A stretch of 64,000 nucleotides of DNA from Aestuariivirga litoralis (GTDB taxonomy: Bacteria > Pseudomonadota > Alphaproteobacteria > Rhizobiales > Aestuariivirgaceae). Each line of letters opens with the position of its first letter. Position 1 is the first letter of the stretch. Made by a program: the position numbers and the translations under genes. The stretch is from NCBI RefSeq assembly GCF_015714715.1, contig NZ_WAHS01000001.1:1-64000 (forward strand). The letters run 5' to 3'. The notes below the pieces were generated by a model. That model worked only from the letters and a program-made list of their open reading frames with translations. It did not search any database and was not told the DNA's origin. This document shows, in pieces, positions 2,673 to 35,497 of the stretch.

Positions 2673-3632
2673 TTATGCGGATCGTTGGCTAATGAATGAC
2701 AAGACTTCTGCGGTGTCGGGCATGGCGGGCGCGCAGCCCACGCGTGTAACCACAAGGGCTGCCGTTGCGGCACCGCGTTTCACGGCCTGTGGCAGGGGAT
2801 CGCCGGCCACGAGACCCGATATGAAACCACCCATGAAGCCATCTCCAGCGCCGGTGGGTTTGAGCGCGGACACGGAGAACACCGGGGTTGCAAAGTCTGT
2901 GCCGCCTGAAAAGGTGATCGCGCCTTTTTCGCCCATTTTGTAAACGACGATGCGGCTGGTTTTGGTCGCCATTTGCTGAGCAAGGTCGCGCCCGTCATCG
3001 GCACCGTTTAACACCGCGAATTCCTCGTCATTGCCGATGATGATGTCGCAGAGTTCTGCTGCTGCACGGCAGATGTCGCGTGCGTCCTCTTTTGAGCTCC
3101 AGGAATAGGGGCGGTAGTCAATGTCGATGATCAAGACGAGACCGGCCTTGTCTGCCAATGTCATGGCCTCCAGGGTGGCGCTGCGCGAAGGTTCACGGGC
3201 GAGGGCGGTTCCCGTCACGATGAGGGCGGCAAACTCAGAATAATTGATTGCGGCTGCATCGGCTTTGGTCACTTCAAAGTCAGCAGCACCATTGCGATAG
3301 ATCACCGACTGGCAATGGACTGCGCGGGTTTCCACAACTGCCAGAGAGTTTCGCGCTTCACCCCCCACTTGTTTGATGAAGCGCGTGTCGACGCCATAAG
3401 AGGTCAGTGCCTTCAACGTATAGCGGCCCACGGCATCATTTGACACTGCGGTGAGCAGGGCCGTGTTCCCGCCCTGTTTTGAAATGGCGACGGCGATATT
3501 GGCAGCAGACCCGCCGAGGGCTGCGCTAAATTTCAGCGCGTCCTCAATTTCGGTCCCTGGAGGATCGGCATAGAGGTCCATGCCGGCCCGGCCGATGACG
3601 AGAAACTTGTTCTGCGCCAGACATTCCAACAT
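2673..3632 (-). CDS. iolC: 5-dehydro-2-deoxygluconokinase
   Basis: A 319-residue PfkB/ribokinase-family kinase. The N-terminal glycine-rich signature GGSAANIAVA begins at residue 40. The C-terminal PfkB signature PTGAGDGF is at 259-266, with D264 as the expected catalytic base. In the inositol pathway IolC phosphorylates 5-dehydro-2-deoxy-D-gluconate at O6, making the substrate of the IolJ aldolase encoded two genes downstream. The assignment among PfkB kinases rests on its place between iolD (3 bases upstream) and iolB (10 bases downstream). This is the non-fused form, without the extra aldolase-like domain found on some proteobacterial IolC proteins. Confidence 0.9.
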   Translation of the reverse strand: MLECLAQNKFLVIGRAGMDLYADPPGTEIEDALKFSAALGGSAANIAVAISKQGGNTALLTAVSNDAVGRYTLKALTSYGVDTRFIKQVGGEARNSLAVVETRAVHCQSVIYRNGAADFEVTKADAAAINYSEFAALIVTGTALAREPSRSATLEAMTLADKAGLVLIIDIDYRPYSWSSKEDARDICRAAAELCDIIIGNDEEFAVLNGADDGRDLAQQMATKTSRIVVYKMGEKGAITFSGGTDFATPVFSVSALKPTGAGDGFMGGFISGLVAGDPLPQAVKRGAATAALVVTRVGCAPAMPDTAEVLSFISQRSA

Positions 3633-3635
3633 GCT

Positions 3636-5525
3636 TCAAACACCCTGTCGCTGGCGGCTTCGGCCCGCTTCGACATCGGCGCGGGCTTTGAGAACTTCGG
3701 GGCGATTGGATACCGAGGGTGTACCGATCTCCCACCACGTATGTCCTTCATTGCTCCAGCCCTCATGAGCATCAACCTTGAGGCAAATGACATAGGTCTT
3801 CTGCGAGGCCTGAGCCCGCTTGAACGCATGCTTTACCTCATCGATTGAAAAAACATCTTCTGCCGCAGCGCCCATCGCTTTGGCGTGGGAGGAAAAATCG
3901 ACGGCAAAGGGTTCGGTCTCGATGTTGCAGTCTGCGATCAGATTGTTGAAGGACACATTGCCTGTGTTATTTTGCAATTTGTTGATGACGGCAAAGCCAC
4001 CATTGTCGCAGACAATGATAATTAGCTTCCTGCCATTGAGCACGGAAGAATAAATGTCGGAATTCATCATCAGGTAGGACCCATCGCCCGTGAAGATGAT
4101 GGTGTCGCGCTCGGGCTCAGTTTCCATCTGTGCAATGCGCGCACCCCAGCCACCGGCAATTTCATAACCCATGCAGGAATAGCCAAACTCAACATCAACG
4201 GACCCGGTGGACAGGGTTCGCCAGTTCGCGGCAACTTCTGCCGGAAGCCCGCCCGCTGCCGCAACAACCCGGTCACGCGGGTGGCACAGGCTGTTCACAG
4301 CCCCGATCACCTGCGCATAGGACATTGGCCGGTTGCTGCCTGTCGGCAATTTGGGACTGATATTGCCATCAACATATTGGTCCCAAGCCTTGCGTTCCTG
4401 ATCCGCATGGGAAACCCATTCATCAGCGACGCGGTATTCGCCCAACGCCTGGGAAAGCTTGATCAACGAGAGCAACGCATCGCCCACCACCGGCAGGGAC
4501 ATATGCTTGGTCGCATCGAAACGGCCGACATTGATGGAAATGATGCGGGCATCCCGATCAAAGGCCGTCCAAGACCCCGTTGTAAAATCCTGCAGCCTCG
4601 TGCCTACAGCCAGAATGCAATCCGCCTCTGCGGCAATGGCGTTGGCGCTGTTGGACCCGGTGACGCCAATGGGGCCGATGTTCAGGGTTTGCCCGTGAAC
4701 GAGATTGGCGCGTCCGGCAATGGTTTCAACAACAGGAATGTTGTGGGTCTCGGCAAAATGCAGAAGCTCGGCCGTGGCGCCTGAATATTGCACGCCACCC
4801 CCGGCGATGATGACGGGTCGCTTCGCGGCCTTCAGAAGTTTGGCTGCCATGGCAATTTCCGTGTGATCAGGTTGCTGGCGGCGGATGTGATGGACGCATT
4901 CGGCGAAGAATTCTTCGGGATAATCATAGCTCCAGCCTTGCACATCATCCTGTGGCAGGCCCAGAAATACCGGGCCGCAATCTGCAGGATCGAGCATCGT
5001 TGCAATGGCCTTGGGAAGTGACTGGATGATTTGTGCGGAGTGAACGATGCGGTCCCAAAAGCGGGTGACACTTTTGAATGCGTCATTCACGGTTACGGTG
5101 GGATCGTTGAAGTGTTCCACTTGCTGCAGCACAGGATCAGGCAGGCGGCTGACGTAAGTGTCGCCGCACAGGAATAGAATTGGCAATCGGTTGGTATGGG
5201 CAACGGCTGCGGCTGTGACCATGTTGGTGGTTCCGGGGCCAGCAGAGGCCGTAGCAAACATGAAGCGGCGACGCAGCTTCTGCTTGGCATAGGCCACAGC
5301 AGCGAGCGCCATTGATTGTTCGTTCTGGCCCCGCCAAAGAGGCAGCTCGCGCTTGTATTCGTGCAAGGCTTCGCCCAGGCAAATCACATTGCCATGCCCG
5401 AAAATCCCAAAACCACCGCCGCAAAGTCTCTGCTTCACCCCATCAATCTCAATGAACTGATTGGCCAAATGGCGCACGAGGGCTTGAGCAGTCGTCAAGT
5501 GGACAGTGCGGGACGTGTGTTGCAT
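3636..5525 (-). CDS. iolD: 3D-(3,5/4)-trihydroxycyclohexane-1,2-dione hydrolase
   Basis: A 629-residue thiamine-diphosphate enzyme of the acetolactate-synthase superfamily matching IolD. It opens the ring of trihydroxycyclohexane-1,2-dione to 5-deoxy-D-glucuronate. The pyrimidine-binding domain is N-terminal (AYAKQKLRRRFMFATASAGPGT region). The ThDP/Mg motif starts with GDGS near residue 480 and is followed about 25 residues later by DNGGFAVINKLQNN. An in-frame TTG four codons upstream is possible. The ATG at 5525 is preferred because GGAG sits at a proper distance before it. It heads the leftward operon iolD-iolC-iolB-iolJ. Its promoter region is shared with the divergent dehydrogenase gene at 5606 and contains a LacI-type operator. 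Confidence 0.94.
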   Translation of the reverse strand: MQHTSRTVHLTTAQALVRHLANQFIEIDGVKQRLCGGGFGIFGHGNVICLGEALHEYKRELPLWRGQNEQSMALAAVAYAKQKLRRRFMFATASAGPGTTNMVTAAAVAHTNRLPILFLCGDTYVSRLPDPVLQQVEHFNDPTVTVNDAFKSVTRFWDRIVHSAQIIQSLPKAIATMLDPADCGPVFLGLPQDDVQGWSYDYPEEFFAECVHHIRRQQPDHTEIAMAAKLLKAAKRPVIIAGGGVQYSGATAELLHFAETHNIPVVETIAGRANLVHGQTLNIGPIGVTGSNSANAIAAEADCILAVGTRLQDFTTGSWTAFDRDARIISINVGRFDATKHMSLPVVGDALLSLIKLSQALGEYRVADEWVSHADQERKAWDQYVDGNISPKLPTGSNRPMSYAQVIGAVNSLCHPRDRVVAAAGGLPAEVAANWRTLSTGSVDVEFGYSCMGYEIAGGWGARIAQMETEPERDTIIFTGDGSYLMMNSDIYSSVLNGRKLIIIVCDNGGFAVINKLQNNTGNVSFNNLIADCNIETEPFAVDFSSHAKAMGAAAEDVFSIDEVKHAFKRAQASQKTYVICLKVDAHEGWSNEGHTWWEIGTPSVSNRPEVLKARADVEAGRSRQRQGV

Positions 5526-5543
5526 GGCGATCTCCAACTGGGC

Positions 5544-5605: not shown

Positions 5606-6709
5606 GTGACGCAGATTGGCATCGGAATCATCGGGGGCGGGTATATGGGCAAGGCCCATGCCGTGGCGATGGGTGCTGTCGCGGCGGTCTTTGATACAGC
5701 ACTTCGACCTTCGCTTGAGGTGGTTTGCACGACAACGGAAAAGGGTGCTGCATACAAGGCTCGGCAGTTTGGCTTTAAGAAATCTACGGCGGATTGGCGC
5801 AATCTGATTGATGATCCTTCAGTTCAAGCGATCGTCATTGCAAGCCCGCAGGACACTCATTGCGAAATCGCGCTGGCGGCCTTCGCCCGCGGCAAACATG
5901 TTTTATGTGAAAAGCCTCTAGGGCTGGGCCTCGAGCAGAGCCGCGCGATGGTTGCTGCAGCGGAGAAAAGCAACTGCATTAACATGGTTGGCTTCAACTA
6001 TATCCGCACCCCGGCCTCGCAACTGGCGCGCCAAATCATTGCGGGCGGTGAGATCGGCGAGATCACATTCCTGCGCGCCGAACACACTGAAGATTTTCTG
6101 AGCGATGCTTCCTTGCCTGGTGACTGGCGCACCGAGGGACGGGCCAATGGCAACATGGGAGACCTTGCGCCGCATATCATCAACGCTGCGTTGGCTCTCG
6201 TCGGCCCCATTACTTCACTTGTGGCTGACATTGCCACCGTCCACAAGACGCGGGGCGGAATTCCCGTGACCAATGATGACCAAAGCGCATTGTTGTGTCG
6301 CTTTGCCAATGGCGCGATGGGCCAACTGTTCATCAGCCGGATCGCGACGGGGCGCAAGATGGGGTATGCCTATGAGATCTACGGCACCAAAGGCTCCATC
6401 CGCTTTGATCAGGAAGACCAGAACGCCCTGTGGCTTTACCGCGCGGATGGTTCGCAAGACCGCAGGGGCTTTGCCAAGATTCTGACTGGTCCCTTGCACC
6501 CAGACTACAAGCCTTTCTGCCTCGGGCCTGGCCATGGCACGGGCTATCAGGATCAGATCATCATCGAGGCGCGCGATTTCGTGCAGTCCATCCATGAAGG
6601 CAAGTCACGCTGGCCGACATTTCGTGATGGCATGCTGGTCAATCAGATCATTGAGGCTGGCTGGCGCTCCCATGAAGGGCGATGCTGGGTTGAAATTTCA
6701 GATGTGTGA
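5606..6709 (+). CDS. Gfo/Idh/MocA-family NAD(P)-dependent dehydrogenase
   Basis: A 367-residue Gfo/Idh/MocA oxidoreductase. The Rossmann motif GIIGGGYMGKAHA is at the N-terminus, CEKPLGL carries the conserved E-K-P, and GDLAPHIINAA supplies the Asp/His dyad used for hydride transfer from a sugar or cyclitol. The start is taken as GTG at 5606 because AAGGA lies 7-8 bases upstream and the Rossmann strand begins at once; a TTG just before it is possible. The longer frame from 5564 would begin inside the promoter. It is first in a rightward operon with the IolE-like gene. Likely roles are oxidation of inositol isomers (scyllo, chiro) or of inosamines, as proposed for rhizobial MocA. The exact substrate is unknown. 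Confidence 0.88.
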   Translation: MTQIGIGIIGGGYMGKAHAVAMGAVAAVFDTALRPSLEVVCTTTEKGAAYKARQFGFKKSTADWRNLIDDPSVQAIVIASPQDTHCEIALAAFARGKHVLCEKPLGLGLEQSRAMVAAAEKSNCINMVGFNYIRTPASQLARQIIAGGEIGEITFLRAEHTEDFLSDASLPGDWRTEGRANGNMGDLAPHIINAALALVGPITSLVADIATVHKTRGGIPVTNDDQSALLCRFANGAMGQLFISRIATGRKMGYAYEIYGTKGSIRFDQEDQNALWLYRADGSQDRRGFAKILTGPLHPDYKPFCLGPGHGTGYQDQIIIEARDFVQSIHEGKSRWPTFRDGMLVNQIIEAGWRSHEGRCWVEISDV

Positions 6710-6718
6710 GTTTTCGAT

Positions 6719-7609
6719 ATGACGATCAAAATTGGAAATGCGCCCTGTTCCTGGGGCGTGGAGTTTGCTGATGACGCACGCAATCCGCCTTGGACGCGCG
6801 TTCTCGATGAATGCAAAGCGGCAGGCTATGATGGCATTGAGCTTGGGCCGATCGGATTCATGCCTGAGGACCCCGCTCTTCTGGGGGACGCACTTGCAGC
6901 CCGGGAGCTGACATTGATCGGCGGCGTGGTTTTTCGACCGTTCCATGATGCGGCGCAATGGGATGATGTGAAGCAGGCTTCGATCCGCACCTGCAAGTCC
7001 CTCGTGGCCCATGGCGCCAGGCACCTTGTGTTGATCGATTCCATTTCGCCGCGACGCGCACCGACGGCTGGCCGCCCTGATGAAGCAGAGCCCATGTCGA
7101 AAGCCGAATGGCAAGGCTTTGCCTCGCGCTTTCGCGATATTGCAAAAATGGGCACTCAAGAATTTGGCCTCACGGTCTCTCTTCATCCCCATGCCGCGGG
7201 CTTCATGGATTTCGAGGCGGAGGTCGAACGCCTGCTCGGTGAGATCGATCCGTCATTCCTTAAGCTTTGTCTCGATAATGGCCATTCGCATTATGCTGGC
7301 TTTGATCCTGTCGCTTTCATGAAGCGGCACCGGGAGAGACTGAGCTATGTTCACTTCAAGGATATTGATCCTGTTGTGAAAGCCGATGTAGTGGCCAAGC
7401 GCACAGATTTCTACAAGGCCTGCGGGCAGGGCATCTTCTGCAATCTCGGCAAGGGCACGACGGATTTCAAAGCCGTGAAGAAGCTGTTGCTTGACACAGG
7501 CTATGATGGATGGTGCACGGTCGAGCAGGATTGTGACCCTGCCGGGCCAACCAGCCCTGTTGATGATGCACGCGCCAATCGCGATTATCTTCGTTCGATT
7601 GGTTTTTGA
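6719..7609 (+). CDS. iolE: Inosose dehydratase-like TIM-barrel protein (IolE/MocC superfamily)
   Basis: A 296-residue TIM-barrel protein of the AP-endonuclease/xylose-isomerase superfamily. It begins IKIGNAPCSWGVEF and contains GYDGIELGPIGFMPED, GGVVFRPFHD, VSLHPHAAGF, LCLDNGHSHYAG, YVHFKDIDP and CTVEQDCDP, which carry the metal-binding Glu, Asp and His residues of the barrel. It is the only gene here that could supply inosose dehydratase (2-keto-myo-inositol to trihydroxycyclohexanedione), the step before IolD. That and its position support the name. It differs from the common IolE opening, so a related inosose isomerase role is possible. It follows the dehydrogenase by 9 bases and is probably co-transcribed. 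Confidence 0.78.
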   Translation: MTIKIGNAPCSWGVEFADDARNPPWTRVLDECKAAGYDGIELGPIGFMPEDPALLGDALAARELTLIGGVVFRPFHDAAQWDDVKQASIRTCKSLVAHGARHLVLIDSISPRRAPTAGRPDEAEPMSKAEWQGFASRFRDIAKMGTQEFGLTVSLHPHAAGFMDFEAEVERLLGEIDPSFLKLCLDNGHSHYAGFDPVAFMKRHRERLSYVHFKDIDPVVKADVVAKRTDFYKACGQGIFCNLGKGTTDFKAVKKLLLDTGYDGWCTVEQDCDPAGPTSPVDDARANRDYLRSIGF

Positions 7610-7623
7610 TTCCAGGAGTGAGC

Positions 7624-8784
7624 ATGGCACGTTTCAGTTGGGGCATGATTGGCGGCGGCGAAGGCAGCCAGATCGGACCGGTGCATCGCATCAGTTCAGC
7701 ACTCGATGCGCGCTTCGAATTGAAAGCAGGCGCACTCGATGTTGATCCCGTGAAGGGCAGGGACTTTGCCATCCGTCTGGGCGTTGCGCCAGACCGCGCT
7801 TATGGTGATTGGAAGGAGATGCTGGCGGGTGAGAAGTCTCGCCAAGACCGCATCGATCTTGTGACCGTTGCCACGCCCAATTCAACGCACTATCAAATCA
7901 CCAAGGCTTTTCTCGAAGCCGGCATTCATGTGCTCTGCGAGAAGCCGATGACTGTGACGGTTGATGAAGCCGAGGATATTGCGGCGACAGCCAAACGGAC
8001 AGGGGCCATCTGCGCCGTGAACTACGGCTACACAGGATATGCTCTGGTGCGCCACATGCGGGCCATGACTGCACGTGGCGATCTTGGCAAGGTGCGCCTC
8101 ATTGTTGTTGAATTCTCGCACGGCTTTCATGCCGATGCGAGCGATGCCGATAACCCGCGCATGCGTTGGCGCTATGATCCGGCCCAAGCTGGAATTTCTG
8201 GGCAATTCGCTGATTGCGGCATTCATGCCTTGCATATGGCCAGCTTTGTGTCCGGCCAGAATGCACGTGAACTTTCAGCCGATTTCGTGTCCACCATTTC
8301 CAGCCGCAAGCTGGAAGATGATGCCATGGTGAATGTGCGTATGGATGGCGGAACAACGGTCAGGCTTTGGACGAGCTCTGTGGCCGTTGGAAGTTTCCAT
8401 GGTTTCAACATCAGGGTCTTTGGGGAGAAGGGTGGCCTGCGCTGGGCGCAGCAATGGCCCGACCAACTCTATTGGACGCCGCTCAATGGCCGTACCGAAA
8501 AGATCGAGCGTGGCATGGGCGGCCTTTCTGCTGATGCAGAGCGTGCAACGCGCATTGCCACTGGCCATTCGGAAGGCATGCTGGTGGCCTTTGCCAATAT
8601 TTATGCTGATCTTGCCGAGGTGATTGAAGCGCGAAAGAACAAGTCAGCGGCCAATCCGCTGGCGCTGCATTTCCCAACGGCTGTTGATGGTTTGCGGTCG
8701 ATTGCCGCGATCAAGGCTTCGGTTGAATCCGCCAAAGCAGGTGGTGCCTGGACGGACGCGCGGCCGCCCAGCTTGCGAAGCTAA
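7624..8784 (+). CDS. Second Gfo/Idh/MocA-family dehydrogenase
   Basis: A 386-residue Gfo/Idh/MocA oxidoreductase, longer than the gene at 5606 and of a different branch. Visible motifs are WGMIGGGEGSQIGPVH (Rossmann loop), LCEKPMTVT, and QFADCGIHALHMASF (Asp/His catalytic region). The ATG at 7624 follows AGGAG at a proper distance; six extra codons upstream would run back into iolE and are rejected. It is the third gene of the rightward operon, 14 bases after iolE. With the dehydrogenases at 5606 and 10801 it makes three paralogous cyclitol-type dehydrogenases in one locus, suggesting several stereoisomers or an amino-inositol are handled. Its 3' end overlaps the convergent LacI gene by 4 bases. 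Confidence 0.87.
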   Translation: MARFSWGMIGGGEGSQIGPVHRISSALDARFELKAGALDVDPVKGRDFAIRLGVAPDRAYGDWKEMLAGEKSRQDRIDLVTVATPNSTHYQITKAFLEAGIHVLCEKPMTVTVDEAEDIAATAKRTGAICAVNYGYTGYALVRHMRAMTARGDLGKVRLIVVEFSHGFHADASDADNPRMRWRYDPAQAGISGQFADCGIHALHMASFVSGQNARELSADFVSTISSRKLEDDAMVNVRMDGGTTVRLWTSSVAVGSFHGFNIRVFGEKGGLRWAQQWPDQLYWTPLNGRTEKIERGMGGLSADAERATRIATGHSEGMLVAFANIYADLAEVIEARKNKSAANPLALHFPTAVDGLRSIAAIKASVESAKAGGAWTDARPPSLRS

Positions 8785-9926: not shown

Positions 9927-10790
9927 TCAGGAGGCGGCAGAAACCTTGTCCAGCGCGGTTTGCATGGCGTCAAAACTCGTCTTTAGTTCACGCTCGAGAT
10001 TCGCATTCGAATGAACCGATGGTGCAAAACATTCATATGAGAACGCACCTTTGTAGCCACGGGCCAAGAGTTTTTTAATCTGTTCAATGTTCCCGAGCCT
10101 GTCGTCTGATGTCACCAGTATCCTGTGTTCGTCGCGCATCTGGTCTATGCCGACACTGGCATCGACAACCCCAGAGATATGCACAATACCCGTCTCCTCC
10201 GGGAAGAACTCTGTCTCGTTTGCAAGGTGATGATGGAACGTGTCATGCACAAGCTTGTAGTGCGCTTCTCCTCCCACAGCCTTAAACGCCTCGATTGCTT
10301 CGCGCTTGCGGCGCAATGAGGACGTGCTGAACCCCAGGGGCTCGACGAGCGCAATCAAGCCTGACGTCTTCAAGAGAGGCAGAATTTGCGTGAGCGCAAA
10401 ATGCAATCCGGAAATCCTCGAATCATCCGATTCCACTTTCCCGTCATTGGAGGGGATCAGCGAAATGGACTGGGCCCCGCTTTGTTGAGCCTCTTTAATT
10501 AGCCGCTCCACTTTCACGCGAATGGTATCTGACCAGCGATTAAAGCCGTAAACTTCCGAGAGGCCCAACAACTTGACATTTTTCGTCAGCGCGTAGGCGC
10601 CAATCTCTGCGGGATCTCTGCCGTCAAAGAAGGCGCGATCTGCAAGTTTCTTGTCGGAGAGATCATTGCGAAGCTCAATTCCGCTACAGCCCAGCCGCGC
10701 CGCGAGATCGATGAACTCTTTAGCATCCAACCGGGGTGCGGTGATGTGATTCAATGCGAAATGGATTTCGTGTTTCATATTCATATTCAT
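9927..10790 (-). CDS. IolI/MocC-like TIM-barrel isomerase
   Basis: A protein of about 287 residues of the sugar phosphate isomerase/epimerase (AP-endonuclease-2 TIM-barrel) family. Metal-site motifs include GCSGIELRND, ALVEPLGF, HDTFHHHL, VHISGVVD and FSYECFAP. This pattern resembles 2-keto-myo-inositol isomerases (IolI) and the rhizobial rhizopine protein MocC; the two cannot be separated by eye. Several in-frame starts lie within 21 bases (GTG 10799, ATG 10790, 10784 and 10778); none has a strong ribosome site and 10790 is a compromise. It is the last gene of the leftward operon mocD-mocE-PanB-like-iolG, 10 bases after iolG. Confidence 0.72.
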   Translation of the reverse strand: MNMNMKHEIHFALNHITAPRLDAKEFIDLAARLGCSGIELRNDLSDKKLADRAFFDGRDPAEIGAYALTKNVKLLGLSEVYGFNRWSDTIRVKVERLIKEAQQSGAQSISLIPSNDGKVESDDSRISGLHFALTQILPLLKTSGLIALVEPLGFSTSSLRRKREAIEAFKAVGGEAHYKLVHDTFHHHLANETEFFPEETGIVHISGVVDASVGIDQMRDEHRILVTSDDRLGNIEQIKKLLARGYKGAFSYECFAPSVHSNANLERELKTSFDAMQTALDKVSAAS

Positions 10791-10800
10791 ACCCACCACT

Positions 10801-11793
10801 TCACGCCACCTTCACAGGCTTGCCCGTCTGCCAGGACACAGTGGCAGCGTCAGCGAGTTTCTGGGCCTGCAAGCCATCAAAGCCTGAAGGTTTGGGATTG
10901 CGGTCGCCGGATTCAACAGCAGCGATGAAGGTATTGAGCTCATGGGCATAGGCCGCGCCATAACGCTCAAGGAAGAAGTTCTGAATGGGATCAGCTTTGG
11001 TGCCTTCAGCATTGTGAACTTCAACCGTGGTATTGTGCACATTGCGGGCGGAAAGCATGCCCTTTGAACCATGAACCTCCATGCGCTGGTCATAGCCATA
11101 GGTGGCGCGCCTGGAATTGGTGATGACCGCAATGCGGCCCGAGGCCGTCTGCATTTGAACAGCCGCCGTATCAACGTCACCGGCCACGCCAATGGCCTTG
11201 TCAACCAGGGCGGAACCCAAGGCATGCACCACCACGAATTCTTCGCCCATCAGAAAGCGCGCCATGTCGAGATCATGGATCATCATGTCCCGGAACAAGC
11301 CGCCTGAGCCTTTGACATAGTCAGCAGGCGGGGGATTGGGATCACGCGAGATCACAGTCACCAGTTCCACATCGCCGATCACACCCTTGCGGATGCGTTG
11401 TTCCAGCTCGCCGAAATTAGGGTCAAAGCGCCGGTTAAAGCCAATCATCAAGGTTGACTTGTTCTTCTCCACCACTTTCAGGGTCTGCTCGATCAGCTCC
11501 ACGGACAGCGACACCGGCTTCTCGCACATGATCGACTTGCCATTGTTGGAAGCCGCCTGGATCTGCTCAGCGTGAAAACCTGTCGGAGAGCCGATCAATA
11601 CCGCATCGACATCCTTTGCCTTCATGATCTCGTCAACGGACGCGACCTTGGCACCATATTGCGCAGCCAGAGCCTCCGCTGCCGCGGGCATGGCATCGGC
11701 GATATAGCTGAGCTTCGCCTTGGAATTCAAAGCGATGGTCTTGGAATGCACCTTGCCAATGCGGCCTGCGCCGATAACGCCAAATCTGATCAT
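10801..11793 (-). CDS. iolG: myo-Inositol 2-dehydrogenase
   Basis: A 330-residue Gfo/Idh/MocA dehydrogenase matching inositol 2-dehydrogenase. Landmarks are RFGVIGAGRIGKVHSKT (Rossmann), MCEKPVSLS (E-K-P), IGFNRRFDPNF, and GGLFRDMMIHDLDMARFL, where D and H of DMMIHD form the catalytic dyad. It oxidises myo-inositol to 2-keto-myo-inositol with NAD, the entry step of the pathway completed by iolE, iolD, iolB, iolC and iolJ in this window. The open frame continues 93 codons upstream but only as a shadow of the PanB-like gene. The ATG at 11793 has a GGGAGAGC ribosome site. It lies 22 bases after the PanB-like gene in the leftward operon. Confidence 0.9.
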   Translation of the reverse strand: MIRFGVIGAGRIGKVHSKTIALNSKAKLSYIADAMPAAAEALAAQYGAKVASVDEIMKAKDVDAVLIGSPTGFHAEQIQAASNNGKSIMCEKPVSLSVELIEQTLKVVEKNKSTLMIGFNRRFDPNFGELEQRIRKGVIGDVELVTVISRDPNPPPADYVKGSGGLFRDMMIHDLDMARFLMGEEFVVVHALGSALVDKAIGVAGDVDTAAVQMQTASGRIAVITNSRRATYGYDQRMEVHGSKGMLSARNVHNTTVEVHNAEGTKADPIQNFFLERYGAAYAHELNTFIAAVESGDRNPKPSGFDGLQAQKLADAATVSWQTGKPVKVA

Positions 11794-11815
11794 ATTAGCT
11801 CTCCCATTCTGTTCG

Positions 11816-12616
11816 CTATTTGCCCGCCAGCATTTTCTTGAAAGCATCCATTTCGGCTTTGGGCGCCGTAACCAAATACTCTGGGGTCGGCCAGCCCCCC
11901 GATTGAACCTCAGCCACGAAAGACTTGAAAGCATCCACGCGCATCGTCTGGATGCGCGCATATTCTGCTGCAAGATTTGCATATTTCTTGGCATGCCGGG
12001 GCACATGGCCCGAATTGGTACCCAGCACGTCACAGCCAAACAGATATTGGCAATCGCCGCCTGAGCCGCCACCCATGGAGACCAGAAACAGATCTGTGTG
12101 CTTCGATATTTCGGCGGTCACTTCCGGCGGCACCACTTCAATCTCAACGCCGAATGCGCCAGCTTCTTCATAACGTTTGACCTGCTCAAATACCTGTTTA
12201 GCGCTTGCAGCGGTCTTACCGACGGCTTTGAAGCCGCCCGTCCAAGTGGCCTTGGACGGAATCAAACCAACATGACCGATGACCGGAACGGCCTCTTCGG
12301 CCAGACGTTTCACGGTTTGCAATGAGGCCGAGCAATAGACGGCATCGGCACCGGCCTTCAGCATTTTGAATGACCAGTCGATGAAGAAGTCGGTGTTGCC
12401 GCCTTCGAAATAATTCATGCCTGGAACTGCAAACAGGCTGGGGCCGACATCGCGAAATCGCGGCTCAATCATCATTTCTGGTGGAACGGATACCATGTCG
12501 ATTCCGGCGGCTTCTGCGGCTGCAAGCTCATCCCAGCTTTCCGTCCGCATCATGGTATATTGAACCTTGCCCTTGTTGGCGCGGATATCGGCGATGGTGG
12601 GGCGTTTGCGGGCCAT
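11816..12616 (-). CDS. Divergent PanB-like (ketopantoate hydroxymethyltransferase family) protein
   Basis: A 266-residue protein with the PanB TIM-barrel order: TIADIRANKGK at the N-terminus, GHVGLIPSK (114-122), GGFKAVGKT (127-135), and AGAFGVEIEVVP (152-163), whose E160 aligns with the catalytic Glu of PanB. Other PanB hallmarks are altered. The metal-binding D-S segment is MVSVPPEM, and the K-x-E-G-G strand reads YCSAS (94-98), so the usual Mg ligands appear to be missing. True PanB adds a hydroxymethyl group from methylene-tetrahydrofolate to ketoisovalerate. The position between mocE and iolG argues against pantothenate synthesis and for a role in cyclitol breakdown, perhaps in one-carbon transfer or retro-aldol chemistry. 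Function unknown. Confidence 0.7.
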   Translation of the reverse strand: MARKRPTIADIRANKGKVQYTMMRTESWDELAAAEAAGIDMVSVPPEMMIEPRFRDVGPSLFAVPGMNYFEGGNTDFFIDWSFKMLKAGADAVYCSASLQTVKRLAEEAVPVIGHVGLIPSKATWTGGFKAVGKTAASAKQVFEQVKRYEEAGAFGVEIEVVPPEVTAEISKHTDLFLVSMGGGSGGDCQYLFGCDVLGTNSGHVPRHAKKYANLAAEYARIQTMRVDAFKSFVAEVQSGGWPTPEYLVTAPKAEMDAFKKMLAGK

Positions 12617-12636
12617 GATTTTCCTTGAGCTTCAGA

Positions 12637-12951
12637 TCAGACAATTGCGATGAAGATCTTCAAGTTTTCGATTTTGACAGGGTATGTTTTCAAGTTCACG
12701 CAAACAGGCGCGCCCTTGGCTGCACCCGTGGTGTAGTCAAACCGGCCATTATGCTTGGGGCATTCGATGATGGTGTCCATCACCAACCCATCGGCGAGAT
12801 GGACGCGCTCATGCGTGCAAAGCCCGTCGGTCGCGTAGAACTTGTCATCGGGTGAACGATAGATCGCGTAGGACTTTCCCTCATGATCAAAGCGGATCAC
12901 ATCTTCCTGATTGATGTCATCCTTGTCGCAAACCTCCACCCAATTGGTCAT
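12637..12951 (-). CDS. mocE: Rieske [2Fe-2S] ferredoxin, MocE-like
   Basis: A 104-residue soluble Rieske-type ferredoxin. The cluster ligands are C45-x-H47 (LCTHERVHLADG) and C64-x2-H67 (CPKHNGRFD). The size and spacing fit small electron carriers for oxygenases. It follows the MocD-like oxygenase gene and its ATG overlaps that stop by 4 bases. An upstream in-frame extension of 40 codons lies inside mocD and is rejected. In rhizopine-catabolising rhizobia mocD, mocE and mocF encode an oxygenase, a ferredoxin and a reductase thought to remove the O-methyl group of 3-O-methyl-scyllo-inosamine. No mocF-like reductase is in the window, so electrons must come from a reductase encoded elsewhere. 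Confidence 0.82.
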   Translation of the reverse strand: MTNWVEVCDKDDINQEDVIRFDHEGKSYAIYRSPDDKFYATDGLCTHERVHLADGLVMDTIIECPKHNGRFDYTTGAAKGAPVCVNLKTYPVKIENLKIFIAIV

Positions 12952-14051
12952 GATGCGCTGTCCAAGATGCTGGCGGGGTCGGATTGTCCATGGAGGCTTG
13001 GGCGATAGGGCTTCGCGGTTGGCGGCAAAGCACGCAACAGGAAATAGTCTTCGCCCTTGAATTGGCGCCACCAGACCGGAATCATCTCACGATAGGCGGC
13101 TCCCATGGAGGGTGAGGGGGCAGGGAGGTCGCCCTTGATGATCTCATGCAGTCTGGGCAGTGCGTGGTAAGGCACCATCGGGAACATGTGATGCTCAATA
13201 TGATAGTTCATGTTCCAATAGATGAAGCGCGAGATCGGGTTGATATAGACGGTACGCGAATTCATGCGGTGGTCGAGTACATTATCGGCGAGCCCGCCAT
13301 GCTGCATCAGACCAGTCAAAATATGATGCCAAGCGCCGTAAAGCCGAGGCAGGCCCACCAGAAGCAGCGGCAGGATGGACTGGAAATAGAAACAAGCCGC
13401 AAGGGTTGCTACATAGATAAGCATCCACACGCGGGCGACGAAAATAACTTTCGGCCATTCAGATTCGGGTATGAAGGTTTTTTCTTCATCAGTCACAATC
13501 CCCGCAACGTTGATGAGCATCATTTTCAATGCGTCATAGGCATCGAGAATTCCGGTGAAGGCGACAAGGACCTTGAACAGAACCGGTGGCCGCATCACCG
13601 CAATTTCGGGATCGAGCCCGACGATAATGGTATCGGTGTGGTGACGCGTATGGCTCCAGCGCCAACGTGTGGGATTGCGCATGATCATGAAACAGGCGAT
13701 TTGATAGACGACGTTATTCATCCAGCGCGTCTTGAAGGCGGTGCCGTGGCCACACTCATGCCAGCGAGAATCCGTCGCTGATCCATAGAGTACGCCATAG
13801 CAGAGGAGTGGAATGACGGCCCACCAGCTTGGCCAGATATAAATTGCCCAGGCGGCAAAGATCACCATGGCACCGAGCCATACAATCGTGTCGCGCGTGG
13901 CGGGACCATCCGTCCGTTTCATCAGGTCTTTCATGACCTGGCGGCTCACTTCAGAATGATACCATTCGGCTGACTTCAGGCCGGCCTCTTCGGCAAGCTT
14001 GGCATCTTGCCCCAGCATTCCATAGTCGCGTTGCTTGTGAACTTTGGTCAT
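12948..14051 (-). CDS. mocD: MocD-like membrane di-iron oxygenase (fatty-acid-desaturase superfamily)
   Basis: A 367-residue integral membrane protein of the fatty-acid desaturase/hydroxylase superfamily. The three histidine boxes that bind the di-iron centre are present: HECGH (98-102), HTRHH (134-138) and HIEHH (284-288). Paired hydrophobic segments lie around 57-92 and 205-235. Coupling to a Rieske ferredoxin and an inositol pathway points to MocD of rhizopine catabolism rather than to lipid desaturation. The likely reaction is oxidative O-demethylation of a methylated cyclitol, releasing formaldehyde. It is first in the leftward operon that ends with iolG and a TIM-barrel isomerase. Its promoter region is shared with the divergent LacI gene at 14182. 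Lipid desaturation remains possible. Confidence 0.82.
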   Translation of the reverse strand: MTKVHKQRDYGMLGQDAKLAEEAGLKSAEWYHSEVSRQVMKDLMKRTDGPATRDTIVWLGAMVIFAAWAIYIWPSWWAVIPLLCYGVLYGSATDSRWHECGHGTAFKTRWMNNVVYQIACFMIMRNPTRWRWSHTRHHTDTIIVGLDPEIAVMRPPVLFKVLVAFTGILDAYDALKMMLINVAGIVTDEEKTFIPESEWPKVIFVARVWMLIYVATLAACFYFQSILPLLLVGLPRLYGAWHHILTGLMQHGGLADNVLDHRMNSRTVYINPISRFIYWNMNYHIEHHMFPMVPYHALPRLHEIIKGDLPAPSPSMGAAYREMIPVWWRQFKGEDYFLLRALPPTAKPYRPSLHGQSDPASILDSAS

Positions 14052-18091: not shown

Positions 18092-19174
18092 ATGTCAGAC
18101 CAACCAGCATCAACCGGCGCATCCACTACAGGCCTTAGCAAGGTGAGGCGATTTCCGCCTGAGGTTTCGATCCTTGGCGTTTTGCTCGGCATCATTCTGG
18201 TCTTTGAAATTCTCGGTTGGATTTTCATCGGTGAGAGTTTCATTCTGAACAAGCAGCGCATTTCAATCATCATCCTGCAGGTGGCGGTGATCGGCATTAT
18301 CGCGGTTGGTGTCACCCAAGTAATCATTACGGCGGGTGTTGATCTGTCGTCCGGTTCGGTTGTTGGATTTACCGCGATGGTTGCCGCAAGTTTTGCCCAA
18401 TCCGCCAGCAATTCCCGGGCGGCTTTTCTTGATCCGTTTTATGCGAAATTCGGGTTGAGTTGGTTCATCGATTCAAGTCCGTTTTGGTCAATCCTATTTG
18501 GCATTCTCTGTGGGTTGCTGCTCGGCCTGATCAATGGCTACATCATCGCGAAGACGAAGATACCGCCTTTTATCGCTACACTGGGAATGATGGTTTCAGT
18601 ACGTGGCCTGGCAAAATGGTACACGCTGGGCCAGCCCGTGGCACTTCTGAACGACAGCTTCACCTGGTTTGGCCAGAGCTTCAATGTGGGCGGTTTTCCG
18701 ATTCCCCGCCCAGTCATTATATTCATCATTGTCGCAGTCATTTGCCATGTGGCTCTGACTTACACGCGCTACGGGAAATTCACTTATGCCATTGGTGCAA
18801 ACCCACAGGCGGCGCGTGTTTCCGGCATCGATATCGGCAGGCATCTGATCAAAGTCTATGCGGTGGCGGGTCTGCTCTCAGGCCTTGCCGGTGTGATGAC
18901 AGCGGCACGCGCTCAATCAGGCCAGCCGGGCATGGGTGTGGCCTATGAGCTTGATGCCATTGCCGCCACTGTCATTGGAGGTACTTCTCTTGCAGGGGGC
19001 GTAGGGCGTATCACGGGAACATTTATTGGCACGATCATTCTCGGTGTGGTGACCTCCGGCTTTACCTTCCTGCAAGTCGGCGCCTATTATCAGGAGATCG
19101 TGAAAGGCATCATCATCGTGACGGCAGTTGTCATAGATCAACAGCGCCAAAATAGGCGTCGCAAATCGAGTTGA
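18092..19174 (+). CDS. Sugar ABC transporter permease, RbsC type
   Basis: A 360-residue membrane permease of the RbsC/AraH family with about ten hydrophobic segments. Family landmarks include ITAGVDLSSGSVVGFTAM near residue 95, IAKTKIPPFIATLGMM, GANPQAARVSGIDI and the conserved loop DAIAATVIGGTSLAGGVG towards the C-terminus. A ribosome site GAGGGGA precedes the ATG. It completes the receptor-ATPase-permease set for a cyclitol or related sugar. The N-terminal 25 residues are polar and cytoplasmic. No terminator is evident after it; a 0.9-kb gene-poor stretch follows. Confidence 0.92.
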   Translation: MSDQPASTGASTTGLSKVRRFPPEVSILGVLLGIILVFEILGWIFIGESFILNKQRISIIILQVAVIGIIAVGVTQVIITAGVDLSSGSVVGFTAMVAASFAQSASNSRAAFLDPFYAKFGLSWFIDSSPFWSILFGILCGLLLGLINGYIIAKTKIPPFIATLGMMVSVRGLAKWYTLGQPVALLNDSFTWFGQSFNVGGFPIPRPVIIFIIVAVICHVALTYTRYGKFTYAIGANPQAARVSGIDIGRHLIKVYAVAGLLSGLAGVMTAARAQSGQPGMGVAYELDAIAATVIGGTSLAGGVGRITGTFIGTIILGVVTSGFTFLQVGAYYQEIVKGIIIVTAVVIDQQRQNRRRKSS

Positions 19175-31179: not shown

Positions 31180-32868
31180 ATGGTTCAAGATTTCACTCAA
31201 GTTTTGATATTTGCGCTGCTGCTGGCGGTGATCTCCGTGCCGCTTGGCATCTACATGGCCAAGGTGGCCAATGGCGATTATCGCTTTCTCGATTTTCTCG
31301 AGCGCCCGACGCTCGCATTATCTGGCGTGCGCAATGAGCCACAGCGCTGGACGACTTATGCTTATGCGCTCATAGCGTTCAACGGCGTGGGCTTCCTGCT
31401 GCTCTATCTCATTCTATGTTTCCAGAACTACCTGCCGTTCAATCCACTGGACCTGCCTGGCCTGTCGCCAGATCTGGCGTTCAATACGGCGATTTCCTTC
31501 ATCACCAATACCAACTGGCAGTCTTATGGCGGCGAAAGCACCATGTCTTTCTCTAGTCAGATGGCCGGTCTGACCACGCAGAACTTTGTTTCGGCCTCAA
31601 GCGGCATGGCTGTAGCGCTTGCCGTGGCGCGCGGCTTTGCTGGGCGCCAGACAAACGATATCGGCAATTTCTGGGTCGATATGACCCGCATGATCATCTA
31701 CGTGCTGTTGCCGATCTGCATCGTTCTGACGCTTTTCTTCGTCTGGTCCGGTATCCCACAGACATTCACTGGTTCAGTCGATGCCACCACGCTCGAAGGT
31801 GCCAAGCAAACGATTGATCTTGGTCCGGTGGCTTCGCAGATCGCTATCAAGCAACTCGGCACCAATGGCGGCGGTTTCTTCAACGTTAATTCAGCTCATC
31901 CTTTCGAAAATCCAACGGCGCTGACCAACCTCATTTCAATGCTGGCCATTCTTGCCATCCCATCAGCCTTCTGCTTCACCTATGGCCGGATGATCGGTGA
32001 CAAGCGCCAGGGCCGCGCCATCGCTTTTGCCATGGCCATATTGATGGTGGTTTCTTTCTCTGCACTGTTCCTGTCCGAACATGCAGGCAATCCGGCATTG
32101 CACGGTTTGGTGAACCAGGTTCAGGGCAACATGGAAGGCAAGGAAGTGCGTTTCGGCGTGGTCAATTCCGCACTCTGGGCGTCGATCACCACCGCTGCCT
32201 CCAATGGCTCGGTCAATGCCATGCATGATAGCTTGACTCCTATCGCCGGCATGATCGCCATGATCAACATCCAGCTGGGCGAAGTGATCTATGGCGGTGC
32301 CGGCGTGGGCCTGACAGGCATGCTGCTGAATGTCATCCTTACCGTTTTCATCGCTGGACTGATGGTGGGCCGCACGCCGGAATATCTCGGCAAGAAGATC
32401 GAGGCGCGCGAAGTAAAGTTGGCGGCTCTGACGCTGCTGGTCATGCCGGTTGGCGTGCTGGTGCTCTCCGCGCTAGCCATCGCCACTGGCCAAGGCCAGT
32501 CTGCCATCGCCAACCAGGGCCCCCATGGCCTGTCCGAGCTGCTCTATGCCTATACATCGGCCACCGGCAATAATGGCTCGGCTTTTGCTGGATTGAGCGC
32601 CAACGTACCCTTTCACAATACGTTCCTGGGCTTGGCTATGGTGCTTGGCCGCTATGGCTATATCATTCCGATCCTCGCCATTGCCGGTTCGCTCGCAGCC
32701 AAGAAGACCACGCCTGCTTCAGCGGGCACCTTCCCAACCCATGGTCCTATCTTTGTCGTCTTGCTCATCGCCACCATCCTGATCGTCGGTGCGCTCACCT
32801 TCTTGCCCGTTCTCGCCCTTGGTCCCATCGCCGAGCATGTGTCGCTCAGCCAAGGGCAGCTATTCTGA
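31180..32868 (+). CDS. kdpA: K+-transporting ATPase subunit A
   Basis: A 562-residue K+-translocating subunit with about ten membrane helices and four selectivity-filter-like loops: FNTAISFITNTNWQSYGGE, LGTNGGGFFNVNSAHPFENP, TAASNGSVNAM and TGNNGSAF. KdpA is related to Trk/Ktr channels and receives K+ for the P-type pump KdpB. The N-terminus FALLLAVISVPLGIYMAKV is typical. It is in operon with kdpB 9 bases downstream. Confidence 0.97.
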   Translation: MVQDFTQVLIFALLLAVISVPLGIYMAKVANGDYRFLDFLERPTLALSGVRNEPQRWTTYAYALIAFNGVGFLLLYLILCFQNYLPFNPLDLPGLSPDLAFNTAISFITNTNWQSYGGESTMSFSSQMAGLTTQNFVSASSGMAVALAVARGFAGRQTNDIGNFWVDMTRMIIYVLLPICIVLTLFFVWSGIPQTFTGSVDATTLEGAKQTIDLGPVASQIAIKQLGTNGGGFFNVNSAHPFENPTALTNLISMLAILAIPSAFCFTYGRMIGDKRQGRAIAFAMAILMVVSFSALFLSEHAGNPALHGLVNQVQGNMEGKEVRFGVVNSALWASITTAASNGSVNAMHDSLTPIAGMIAMINIQLGEVIYGGAGVGLTGMLLNVILTVFIAGLMVGRTPEYLGKKIEAREVKLAALTLLVMPVGVLVLSALAIATGQGQSAIANQGPHGLSELLYAYTSATGNNGSAFAGLSANVPFHNTFLGLAMVLGRYGYIIPILAIAGSLAAKKTTPASAGTFPTHGPIFVVLLIATILIVGALTFLPVLALGPIAEHVSLSQGQLF

Positions 32869-32877
32869 GGTTTCATC

Positions 32878-34923
32878 ATGACCAAAACTGCCCCAAATGA
32901 AATTGGCCTCTTTGCCCCGGACATCATCCGGCCAGCAATTGGTCAGTCCTTCCTGAAGCTAAATCCAAGAACGCTGGCGCGAAATCCCGTGATCTTCGTC
33001 ACCGGTGTCATCTCGCTCTACGCCACCATTATGGTGGCGCGCGAAGCTTTCACCGGCGGCGCGCATGTGATGATCGGTGCTCAAATTGCGATATGGCTGT
33101 GGTTCACGGTGCTCTTCGCCAATTTCGCCGAGGCGATTGCCGAAGGCCGGGGCAAGGCCCGCGCCGATGCGTTCCGTTCAACCAAGTCGGACGTGATGGC
33201 AAAGGTCCTGCCCACCGAAGATAACCCGGACGTCTTTTCCCTGCGCTCCGCCGATGAATTGGAGCCCGGCGAGATCATCTATGTTGCGGTTGGCGAAATC
33301 ATTCCCACAGATGGTGAAGTGATCAGGGGTGTTGCTTCGGTGGATGAAAGCGCCATCACCGGTGAAAGCGCTCCCGTGATCCGCGAGTCCGGTGGGGACC
33401 GTTCCTCCGTAACGGGAGGCACACGCATTGCTTCTGACTGGCTGATCATCCGCGTCACCGCCAAGCCGGGTGAGACCTTCCTCGACCGCATGATCGCTTT
33501 GGTCGAAGGTGCCAAGCGCCAGAAGACCCCGAACGAAATCGCCCTCAACATCCTGCTGGCAGGCCTTTCGCTGGTGTTCCTGTTCGTGGTGGTCACGCTG
33601 CCCTTCTTTGCGTCATGGTCGGGCACCGATGTGCCGGTGATCTATCTGGCTGCGCTGTTCATCACGCTGATCCCTACAACTATCGGCGGGCTTCTCTCCG
33701 CCATCGGCATTGCTGGCATGGACCGTCTGGTGAAGGCCAATGTCATCGCCAAATCCGGCCGCGCGGTTGAAGCTGCCGGTGACATCGATGTGCTGCTGCT
33801 GGACAAGACCGGCACCATCACTTTCGGTAACCGCATGGCCGATGAATTTGCGCCTTTGCCGGGGGTGGATGAACGCAAGCTCGCCGAATCTGCCTTCCTC
33901 GCTTCGTTGGCCGATGAAACACCGGAGGGAAAATCCATCGTCGATCTGGCGCAGAAGAAGTTCGGCTTCAAGCAAAGCCAGTTGGCCAAGGGAGCGACTT
34001 TCATTCCCTTCACCGCACAAACCCGCATGTCTGGCGTCGATATTGGCAAGGGCCATATCATCCGCAAGGGCGCGTCCGATGCAATCCAGGCGCATTGTGG
34101 TGGCCTGCAGATCGCGGCCCTCGACGCCATCGTGAAGCGCATCGCGTCTTCCGGCGGCACGCCGCTGGTGGTGGCCGAGAATGGCAAGCCGCTGGGCGTC
34201 ATTCACCTGAAGGACATTGTGAAGCCCGCCATCCGTGAACGCTTTGCCGAACTGCGCAAGATGGGCATCCGCACGGTGATGATCACTGGAGACAATCCGC
34301 TCACCGCTGCCGCTATCTCGGCCGAAGCTGGTGTCGATGACTTCCTTGCCGAAGCCACACCGGAAAAGAAGCTGGAACTGATCCGCAAGGAACAGGCCGA
34401 AGGCAAATTGGTTGCGATGTGCGGTGACGGTTCCAATGACGCACCAGCACTCGCCCAAGCCGATGTGGGTGTGGCGATGAATTCAGGCACGCCAGCTGCC
34501 AAGGAGGCAGGCAATCTGATCGATCTAGACAGCGACCCGACCAAGCTCATCGAAATCGTGATGGTAGGAAAACAGATGCTGATGTCGCGTGGTGCGCTCA
34601 CTACCTTCTCGATCGCCAATGACGTCGCCAAGTATTTTGCCATACTGCCAGCGTTGTTTGTGACCGCCTATCCGGGCCTTGCCGTGCTCGATATCATGCG
34701 CCTCGGTACGCCGCAAAGTGCCATCCTGTCGGCTATCATCTTCAACGCACTGATCATCGTGGCGCTGATCCCGATTGCGCTGAAGGGCGTGAAATATGTG
34801 CCGGCGCCGGCGGTGGTTCTGTTGAAGCGCAACTTGCTGATCTACGGACTAGGCGGCCTGATTGCGCCCTTCATCGGCATCAAGCTCATAGATCTTGTTG
34901 TTGATTTTCTGCATCTTGCGTAA
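32878..34923 (+). CDS. kdpB: K+-transporting P-type ATPase subunit B
   Basis: A 681-residue P-type ATPase. Motifs in order: the actuator loop ITGESAPV, membrane helix 4 with [20 protein letters not shown], the phosphorylation site [13 protein letters not shown], the nucleotide-binding region with KGASDAI, and the hinge [21 protein letters not shown]. It drives ATP-dependent high-affinity K+ uptake through KdpA. The length is normal and no residues appear missing. It lies 10 bases before kdpC. Confidence 0.97.
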
Positions 34924-34933
34924 GGATTAAATC

Positions 34934-35497
34934 ATGACAAACATTCTTCGCCCGGCATTGTCGCTCACCGTAATCTTTTCGGTACTGACGGGAGTTGCCT
35001 ATCCCTTGGCCATGACGGGCCTCTCACAATCCCTGTTTCCTAACTCCGCCAATGGCAGCATGGTGCAGGTGAGCGGCAAGGTGATCGGCTCGTTTCTGAT
35101 TGGCCAGAACTTCGCCGCCGACACATATTTCCATGGCCGTCCCTCTGCCGCTGGTAAGGATGGCTATGACGCGACCGCGTCATCTGGCTCCAATCTGGGC
35201 CCCAGTTCCAAGGCCCTGATCGACGCCGTGAAGCAGCGTGTGGCCGATCTCGGCGGTGGTCCAGTGCCGGATGATCTGGTTTTGGCCTCAGCCTCCGGTC
35301 TCGATCCAGATATCTCGCCGGAAGGCGCCTTGTTCCAGGTCGCACGGGTGGCAAAAGCCCGCAACATCGATGAGGCCAAAGTGAAAGCATTGGTCATGAG
35401 AGTAGTTCGTCAACCACAATTCGGCGTGCTCGGTGAACCTCGCGTCAATGTGCTAGGCTTGAATCTTGCCCTCGACAGGATGACAATCAGCCCCTGA
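34934..35497 (+). CDS. kdpC: K+-transporting ATPase subunit C
   Basis: A 187-residue KdpC. One N-terminal membrane helix (LSLTVIFSVLTGVAYPLAMTG) is followed by the conserved SFLIGQNFAADTYFHGRPSA, SSGSNLGPSS, ASGLDPDISPEGA and the C-terminal GEPRVNVLGLNLALD. It raises the nucleotide affinity of KdpB. The stop overlaps the kdpD ATG by one base, so the sensor genes are in the same transcript. Confidence 0.96.
   Translation: MTNILRPALSLTVIFSVLTGVAYPLAMTGLSQSLFPNSANGSMVQVSGKVIGSFLIGQNFAADTYFHGRPSAAGKDGYDATASSGSNLGPSSKALIDAVKQRVADLGGGPVPDDLVLASASGLDPDISPEGALFQVARVAKARNIDEAKVKALVMRVVRQPQFGVLGEPRVNVLGLNLALDRMTISP

Follow-up and report, generated by a model that had tools for sequence, protein, structure and literature searches.

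A gene lodged between mocE and iolG in Aestuariivirga litoralis encodes a relative of the ketopantoate hydroxymethyltransferase PanB that, in its predicted structure, retains the fold of PanB, whereas the metal and keto-acid residues of the active site are gone. We have coined the name PanBL for the PanB-like clade to which it belongs, which is a PanB-family variant with a probable new function in oxidative demethylation. Our reading is that PanBL is a metal-free formaldehyde-activating relative of PanB that depends on tetrahydrofolate (THF) and resides in alphaproteobacterial demethylation clusters, and that it would have discarded the keto-acid half of the parent active site and gained a second glutamate; we give this reading a probability of roughly 0.45. 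Its broader core, a one-carbon role downstream of oxidative demethylases, appears likely from sequence and gene context, and for the specific step of condensing formaldehyde with THF as the acceptor we see about even odds. If the reading is true, formaldehyde has a dedicated route into folate metabolism in bacteria that demethylate plant cyclitols and related compounds, and a missing enzyme becomes available to synthetic methylotrophy, namely one for the condensation of formaldehyde with THF. In the excerpts of the literature used here, this condensation is treated as spontaneous and is estimated to be far too slow for growth (PMC7073904, PMC8879981). PanBL would probably catch toxic formaldehyde from oxygenases that are thought to demethylate sugars.

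The gene run in the window

The features of the window, by which we mean the whole stretch of 64,000 nucleotides that was analysed, are as follows.

987-1823, minus: class-II aldolase (inositol catabolism), profile match
1820-2773, minus: KduI/IolB family gene, profile match
2673-3632, minus: PfkB kinase, iolC-like, profile match
3636-5537, minus: iolD, profile match
6719..7609, plus: IolE-like AP_endonuc_2 protein; TIGR04379 167.5 bits, under the cut-off of 290
9927..10799, minus: AP_endonuc_2 (sugar isomerase/epimerase-type) protein, after iolG; PF01261 64.9 bits
10801..11793, minus: iolG, inositol 2-dehydrogenase, next in the run; TIGR04380 424.9 bits (cut-off 355)
11816..12616, minus: PanBL, 266 aa; PanB fold lacking the metal/keto-acid site; enzyme proposed to capture formaldehyde (with THF)
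12637..12951, minus: mocE, 104 aa, MocE-family Rieske [2Fe-2S] ferredoxin; TIGR02377 178.1 bits (cut-off 136.15), PF00355
12948..14051, minus: mocD, 367 aa, FA_desaturase-family membrane oxygenase, presumed O-demethylase; PF00487 127.4 bits
14182..15207, plus: LacI-family regulator, divergent from mocD; PF00356, PF13407
15547-16470, plus: sugar ABC transporter binding protein; PF13407
16530-18068, plus: sugar ABC transporter ATPase, named by eye from the translation
18092-19174, plus: sugar ABC transporter permease, named by eye from the translation

The genes mocD, mocE, PanBL, iolG and AP_endonuc_2 form a minus-strand run in this order (14051..9927). The PanBL reading frame is open and is separated from mocE by 20 bp and from iolG by 22 bp, just where the initial annotation had placed it; the interval given there reached 12951 because mocE was included. 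The mocD stop and the mocE ATG overlap, with 4 bp common to both genes. The mechanical iolG frame (10801-12072) starts 279 bases further upstream, inside the PanBL gene, and iolG probably begins with the ATG at 11793. Both MocE and IolG score above the cut-offs of their own families (TIGR02377 and TIGR04380, respectively). As the window combines iol genes, an ABC importer and MocDE, the setting is one of import and breakdown of inositol compounds with an oxygenase in front.

Excerpts of four accounts (PMC10107442, PMC3538637, PMC11387232, PMC5789663) assign mocDEF to rhizopine catabolism, place these genes beside a LacI-type regulator in several rhizobia and describe the mocD promoter as rhizopine-inducible; a PanB-like gene is not named in these excerpts. 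The window resembles this system in having mocD and mocE, here directly upstream of PanBL, and a divergent LacI-type regulator (PMC3538637, PMC11387232). Nevertheless, there are distinct differences. MocDEF includes the reductase mocF, and the window run has a PanB-like gene where the excerpts name none. The window run (9927-14051) has no ferredoxin reductase (mocF) gene, which 67/88 related loci do have; its MocD and MocE may draw on a reductase encoded elsewhere in the genome (L227). Elsewhere in the window, a kdp potassium transport region occupies 31180-38864 (KdpA, 31180-32868; KdpD, 35497-38181).

Fold, active site and phylogeny of PanBL

The window protein matches PF02548 with 122 bits (cut-off 28.7) over residues 83-244 only, and PF02548 is the sole Pfam family that matches PanBL at an E value of 0.001. 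Its score against TIGR00222 (panB), 92.5 bits, is far under the equivalog cut-off of 207.55. An AlphaFold model was obtained with a mean pLDDT of 88.0 and a pTM of 0.80 (residues 120-129 below 50). Its best structural matches are solved PanBs, six entries with VIA-align Z scores of 22.5-24.7, and the next among the matches listed belong to the ICL/PEP-mutase superfamily with Z of at most 15.2. In this model, PanBL has the PanB TIM-barrel fold over its whole chain; the initial annotation had recognized PanB fold motifs and proposed a structural overlay, and the overlay agrees with it.

We take the metal ligands of PanB to be D45, D84 and E114, its keto-acid residues to be S46 and K112 and its catalytic glutamate to be Glu181 (all in E. 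coli numbering). An earlier residue count left out eight sequences (L146, L155, L161, L095, L106, L116 and L117, plus L112, which is too short). The later alignment contains 77 PanBL rows and leaves out L128 (<200 aa); L112/L128 is one locus with a partial PanBL match only. Removal of 22 rows that were repeat copies or near relatives gave 55 PanBL rows for the tree, and 54 without L190 for the counts. When aligned with 29 true PanBs, that of E. coli among them, the window protein has P46, E47, G66, Y94 and S96 at the positions of D45, S46, D84, K112 and E114, respectively. The loss of the D-S and K-x-E-G-G metal-ligand segments, reported in the initial annotation, is thereby upheld; the third ligand, D84, had been omitted there. 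Alignment of the clade does not bring the ligands back: D84, K112 and E114 are kept in none of the 54 rows, D45 is aligned in one (L170) and S46 in six. H136 and E181 are kept in the window protein as H115 and E160, the latter being the aligned catalytic glutamate recognized from the outset, and H136, E181 and G203 are kept in 54/54 rows. D209 (50/54), Q211 (48/54) and P227 (53/54) are kept in most.

The clade also has residues of its own. A new glutamate at the V179 position, found in 54/54 PanBL rows versus 0/29 true PanBs, creates an E-x-E motif (E158/E160 in the window protein), and a new histidine occupies the F229 position in 54/54 rows. Tyrosine stands at the K112 position in 50/54 rows and tryptophan at the I146 position in 51/54. 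More than 50 columns of the PanBL alignment are invariant; an invariant lysine was looked for across this alignment, and none is fully invariant. In the AlphaFold model, the polar conserved residues (Y94 in most sequences, H115, E158, E160 and H208) lie mostly at the ends of barrel strands or in the following loops, and the active site, as modelled, looks rebuilt and not decayed. The possibility of a decayed gene was rejected on the invariant columns and on the reading frames, an internal stop being present in none of 28 matches from a 398-genome sample and none of 27 from a 150-genome sample.

The window genome contains one intact true PanB (L009) and four PanBLs; the window PanBL and L009 share 25% identity across 244 aligned columns. 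A tree of 84 rows places the 55 PanBL rows and the 29 PanBs on opposite sides of one branch (support 100/99); L190 is the PanBL row nearest to PanB, and the remaining 54 form one group (100/100). By this phylogeny, PanBL is a separate clade outside canonical PanB. The two are alike in the whole-chain TIM barrel and in H136, E181 and G203, but PanB differs in its metal and keto-acid residues, in usually having panC nearby and in its side of the 100/99 branch. A canonical PanB or pantothenate role was rejected on the residues, the tree, the panC linkage and the TIGR00222 cut-off. The initial annotation had likewise looked away from pantothenate, and PanBL neither groups inside canonical PanB nor has panC as a partner (0/120 loci).

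Three genes carry a partial version of these changes: L216:7944-8855 (Methylobacterium nodulans, annotated panB), L219:7478-8347 and L190:7307-8140. They keep D45, S46 and K112, with D84 changed to S/C, E114 to Q and V179 to E; they score as full-length PanB (PF02548 296-324 bits) and adjoin FA_hydroxylase or VanA-type genes. They could possibly be an intermediate line nearer to PanB. Across 80 Pseudomonadota genomes, the PF02548 scores split into a stronger group (E <=4.2e-73), made up of the true PanBs and the partial gene L219 (G016:C1:961001), and a weaker group (E >=5.8e-39), made up of the PanBLs. PanBL is present in 19/398 Pseudomonadota genomes, all within the window organism's own class, and in 15/150 genomes of its order.

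Gene neighbourhoods of PanBL

Neighbourhoods were compared in an 88-locus set, comprising four loci of the window genome, 80 from a genome-contig scan and four plasmids, and in a 120-locus set that adds divergent loci. A similarity scan that started from the window protein supplied 80 of the 120, and many of the loci are closely related. Here, 'oxygenase' denotes a tblastn match (E 1e-8, 35% of the query), with Pfam applied to representatives only; locus genes were called by a custom ORF script, and gene-order drawings are approximate.

An oxygenase-like gene was found within 10 kb of PanBL in 114/120 loci (tblastn), with the types overlapping (MocD 103, FA_hydroxylase 20, Rieske 7), and within 10 kb of true PanB in 0/20 control loci. 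The controls are stretches of 10-17.5 kb, 15 from PanBL-carrying genomes and five from other genomes of the order. Among the 31 loci from outside the similarity scan and plasmid search (the genome's own four, L122-L136 and L179-L190), 26 have an oxygenase. On the same strand and within 4 kb of PanBL lie MocD in 86, MocE in 85 and ferredoxin reductase in 67 of the 88 loci, and 84/88 loci contain a LacI-type match. IolG of at least 40% identity occurs within 10 kb in 19/120 loci. The panC gene was found at 0/120 PanBL loci versus 27/30 true PanB loci of ~3.75 kb; it was present at 14/20 control loci, the organism's own true PanB being among the six without it.

The association is close and not obligate. 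Of 398 Pseudomonadota genomes, 19 have PanBL, 36 have the MocE family and 18 have both (Fisher p 2.5e-20, uncorrected for kinship), and a MocE match is no more than 10 kb away from 22/28 PanBL matches in this sample. Nevertheless, 34/56 MocE matches are not accompanied by a PanBL within 10 kb, on which ground an obligate PanBL-MocE partnership was rejected, and no PanBL match was found in 18 of the 36 genomes that have the MocE family. Six MocE loci without PanBL (L173-L178) carry MocD- or FA_hydroxylase-type genes. Since many MocE loci do without it, PanBL is not needed for such oxygenase systems. Conversely, tblastn detected no oxygenase within 10 kb at six of the 120 PanBL loci (L012, L122, L127, L128, L181 and L186); at L012, the PanBL shares 76% identity with that of the window. 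The suggestion that the clade always travels with mocDE thus stands as a close association and fails as a rule, both for these six loci and for the MocE genomes without PanBL.

The partners vary. A run on Bradyrhizobium plasmid p155_1 has PanBL followed by a sterol desaturase family gene, a Rieske protein, an isomerase and an FAD oxidoreductase. The neighbour of PanBL at L188 is a Rieske ring-hydroxylating oxygenase, and the PanB relative at L190 is directly followed by a vanillate O-demethylase C-terminal domain protein (PF19112). The run at L125 continues to a glycine-betaine-type binding protein (OpuAC), and DctP-type binding proteins occur at L127 and L181. A role confined to cyclitols was found to be unsupported because of these binding proteins at L125, L127 and L181 and the VanA-type protein at L190. 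At L180, a creatinase/M24-family gene (6336-7691) lies between mocE and PanBL, which could point to an N-methyl substrate. Downstream of PanBL at L057, L067, L071 and L172 lies a nadA - L-aspartate oxidase - nadC block, annotated as such in L172 and recognized in the other three from the same gene clusters; no functional link of the nadA/nadC block to PanBL is evident.

Some loci lead on to folate genes. The annotated order on pMHb of Mesorhizobium huakuii is desaturase (mocD) - Rieske (mocE) - reductase - PanBL - purU - folD, which is the arrangement of a PurU-FolD formaldehyde/formate route directly after PanBL. Most PanBL loci differ from this: purU adjoins PanBL in 15/88 loci (14 on the same strand within 4 kb) and folD in 1/88, and no PurU match was found at the other 73, some of which stop at contig ends. 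L077 ends in an apparent PurU start, judged by eye. In a 42-row PurU tree, from which partial L040 and the partial PurUs of L054 and L077 were left out, the label 'near PanBL' (14 rows) needs three changes, at least two of them forced by well-supported branches. PurU is not enriched in PanBL genomes of the order-level sample (9/15 versus 60/135 others) and was rejected as a genome-level marker of PanBL on these counts. It may be the demethylase, and not PanBL, to which purU is linked.

The sole PurU of the window genome that scores over the cut-off (C2:537295-538125) is part of a run of reductase - TIM - MocE - IolG - PurU, beside FA_hydroxylase-type genes and ~7 kb from the PanBL paralogue L008; the IolG of this run is 82% identical to the window IolG. 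This region (G000:C2 ~526.4-546 kb; L008, L227) is presumably another demethylation cluster of the genome, bigger than that of the window; it contains PanBL, MocD, MocE, three FA_hydroxylase-type genes, two sugar ABC transporters, IolG, a reductase and PurU.

Proposed role and competing readings

In the proposed pathway, an O-methylated inositol, perhaps pinitol-, ononitol- or rhizopine-like, would enter through the ABC importer. MocD, with MocE as its ferredoxin, would hydroxylate the methyl ether, which would collapse to inositol and formaldehyde, and the inositol would be degraded by IolG and the iol gene products. The one-carbon unit would be taken by PanBL and most likely condensed with THF to give 5,10-methylene-THF, for use by FolD and PurU or by biosynthesis. 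Demethylation by the MocD-type and FA_hydroxylase-type proteins, and formaldehyde as the substrate of PanBL, are what we infer from this arrangement; formaldehyde is the plausible common product because the differing oxygenase types plausibly share demethylation. The one-carbon link to an O-demethylase, raised in the initial annotation, gains backing from the oxygenase counts at PanBL and control loci, from purU at 15/88 loci and from the single purU-folD locus.

On PanBL, N5 would attack first, water would then leave with acid assistance (E158/E160 and H115), and N10 would complete the closure; E158/E160, H115, Y94 and H208 are candidates for the acid-base work. PanBL would thus have kept the one-carbon chemistry of PanB and dropped its carbon acceptor. 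According to an excerpt of PMC7770189, the PanB reaction transfers a one-carbon unit from THF onto a keto acid, whose enol is made with the metal. Because the one-carbon unit in PanB is on THF and the metal serves enolization, loss of the metal half with retention of H136 and E181 fits a change of acceptor.

A catalyst for formaldehyde and THF would be useful because the spontaneous condensation is so slow: the doubling time that it would allow is estimated at more than three weeks if it is the sole source of biomass (He et al., PMC7073904, in excerpt). A review, likewise in excerpt, assigns Fae to H4MPT and Gfa to glutathione and treats the THF step as spontaneous (PMC8879981). By analogy, PanBL would be the THF counterpart of these formaldehyde-activating enzymes. 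Its proposed job, speeding the condensation of formaldehyde with a carrier, is theirs (PMC8879981), but it is of a different sequence family, matching PF02548 only, and its proposed carrier is THF. PanB itself has been considered as a promiscuous formaldehyde-THF catalyst in E. coli, and the deletion of panB and ltaE left growth of the tester unchanged, so that true PanB lends little support to the folate-formaldehyde reaction as far as the excerpt goes (PMC7073904). Genetic arguments have also been made for a side activity of PanB that cleaves folate (PMC4814558, in excerpt). In the open-licence PMC literature, we recognized no description of a PanBL protein among the matches listed.

Several other readings have to be weighed against condensation with THF. 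The oxygenase might pass an unstable hemiacetal (R-O-CH2OH) to PanBL, which would move the hydroxymethyl group to THF without free formaldehyde. The tight run of PanBL with oxygenase genes and the nature of PanB as a hydroxymethyltransferase working with THF (PMC7770189, in excerpt) would suit such a transfer, but one family serves differing oxygenases with probably differing substrates, which argues for a small common product; we regard it as unlikely, yet worth keeping in view. PanBL might also not be an enzyme but a formaldehyde-binding buffer, a sensor or an assembly partner of the oxygenase, as loss of the PanB metal site and co-localization with the oxygenase could suggest. This is rather unlikely, since in the model the polar conserved residues are on the PanB active-site side of the barrel and give the look of a working, changed active site. 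Scarcely different in our estimate, and a little less probable, is the addition of formaldehyde to another acceptor (a ketose, an inosose, another carbon or a thiol) in a metal-free, aldolase-like reaction. The excerpts consulted describe PanB as a class II aldolase (PMC4814558) and some PanB variants as accepting free formaldehyde (PMC7073904), and IolG is near PanBL at the 19 loci noted above. However, the clade lacks the metal site and has no invariant lysine for a Schiff base, and the OpuAC locus L125 and the Rieske-oxygenase loci suggest no single sugar acceptor.

Two further readings carry very little weight. A retro-aldol reaction or isomerization on the cyclitol ring was an option in the initial annotation, and the position of PanBL beside iolG and near an AP_endonuc_2 protein in the window would agree with it. 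Ring opening and aldol cleavage are nevertheless already provided for in the window by IolD and a class-II aldolase, relatives of PanBL lie beside other oxygenase types, such as the VanA-type protein, and a betaine-type binding protein gene of a transporter, and both the enolizing metal site and an invariant lysine are missing; the option is unsupported and we consider it very improbable. That PanBL is a spare ketopantoate hydroxymethyltransferase, the name under which databases annotate it (e.g. H1, H64), has next to no probability given the lost metal and keto-acid residues, the intact PanB of the window genome, the lack of panC at all 120 loci and the low TIGR00222 score.

Even if THF is the wrong acceptor, database entries are misnamed as 3-methyl-2-oxobutanoate hydroxymethyltransferase. 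This name stands on 22 of the 40 plasmid rows listed out of 274 matching records, and four of the annotated records examined under it tie it to pantothenate biosynthesis.
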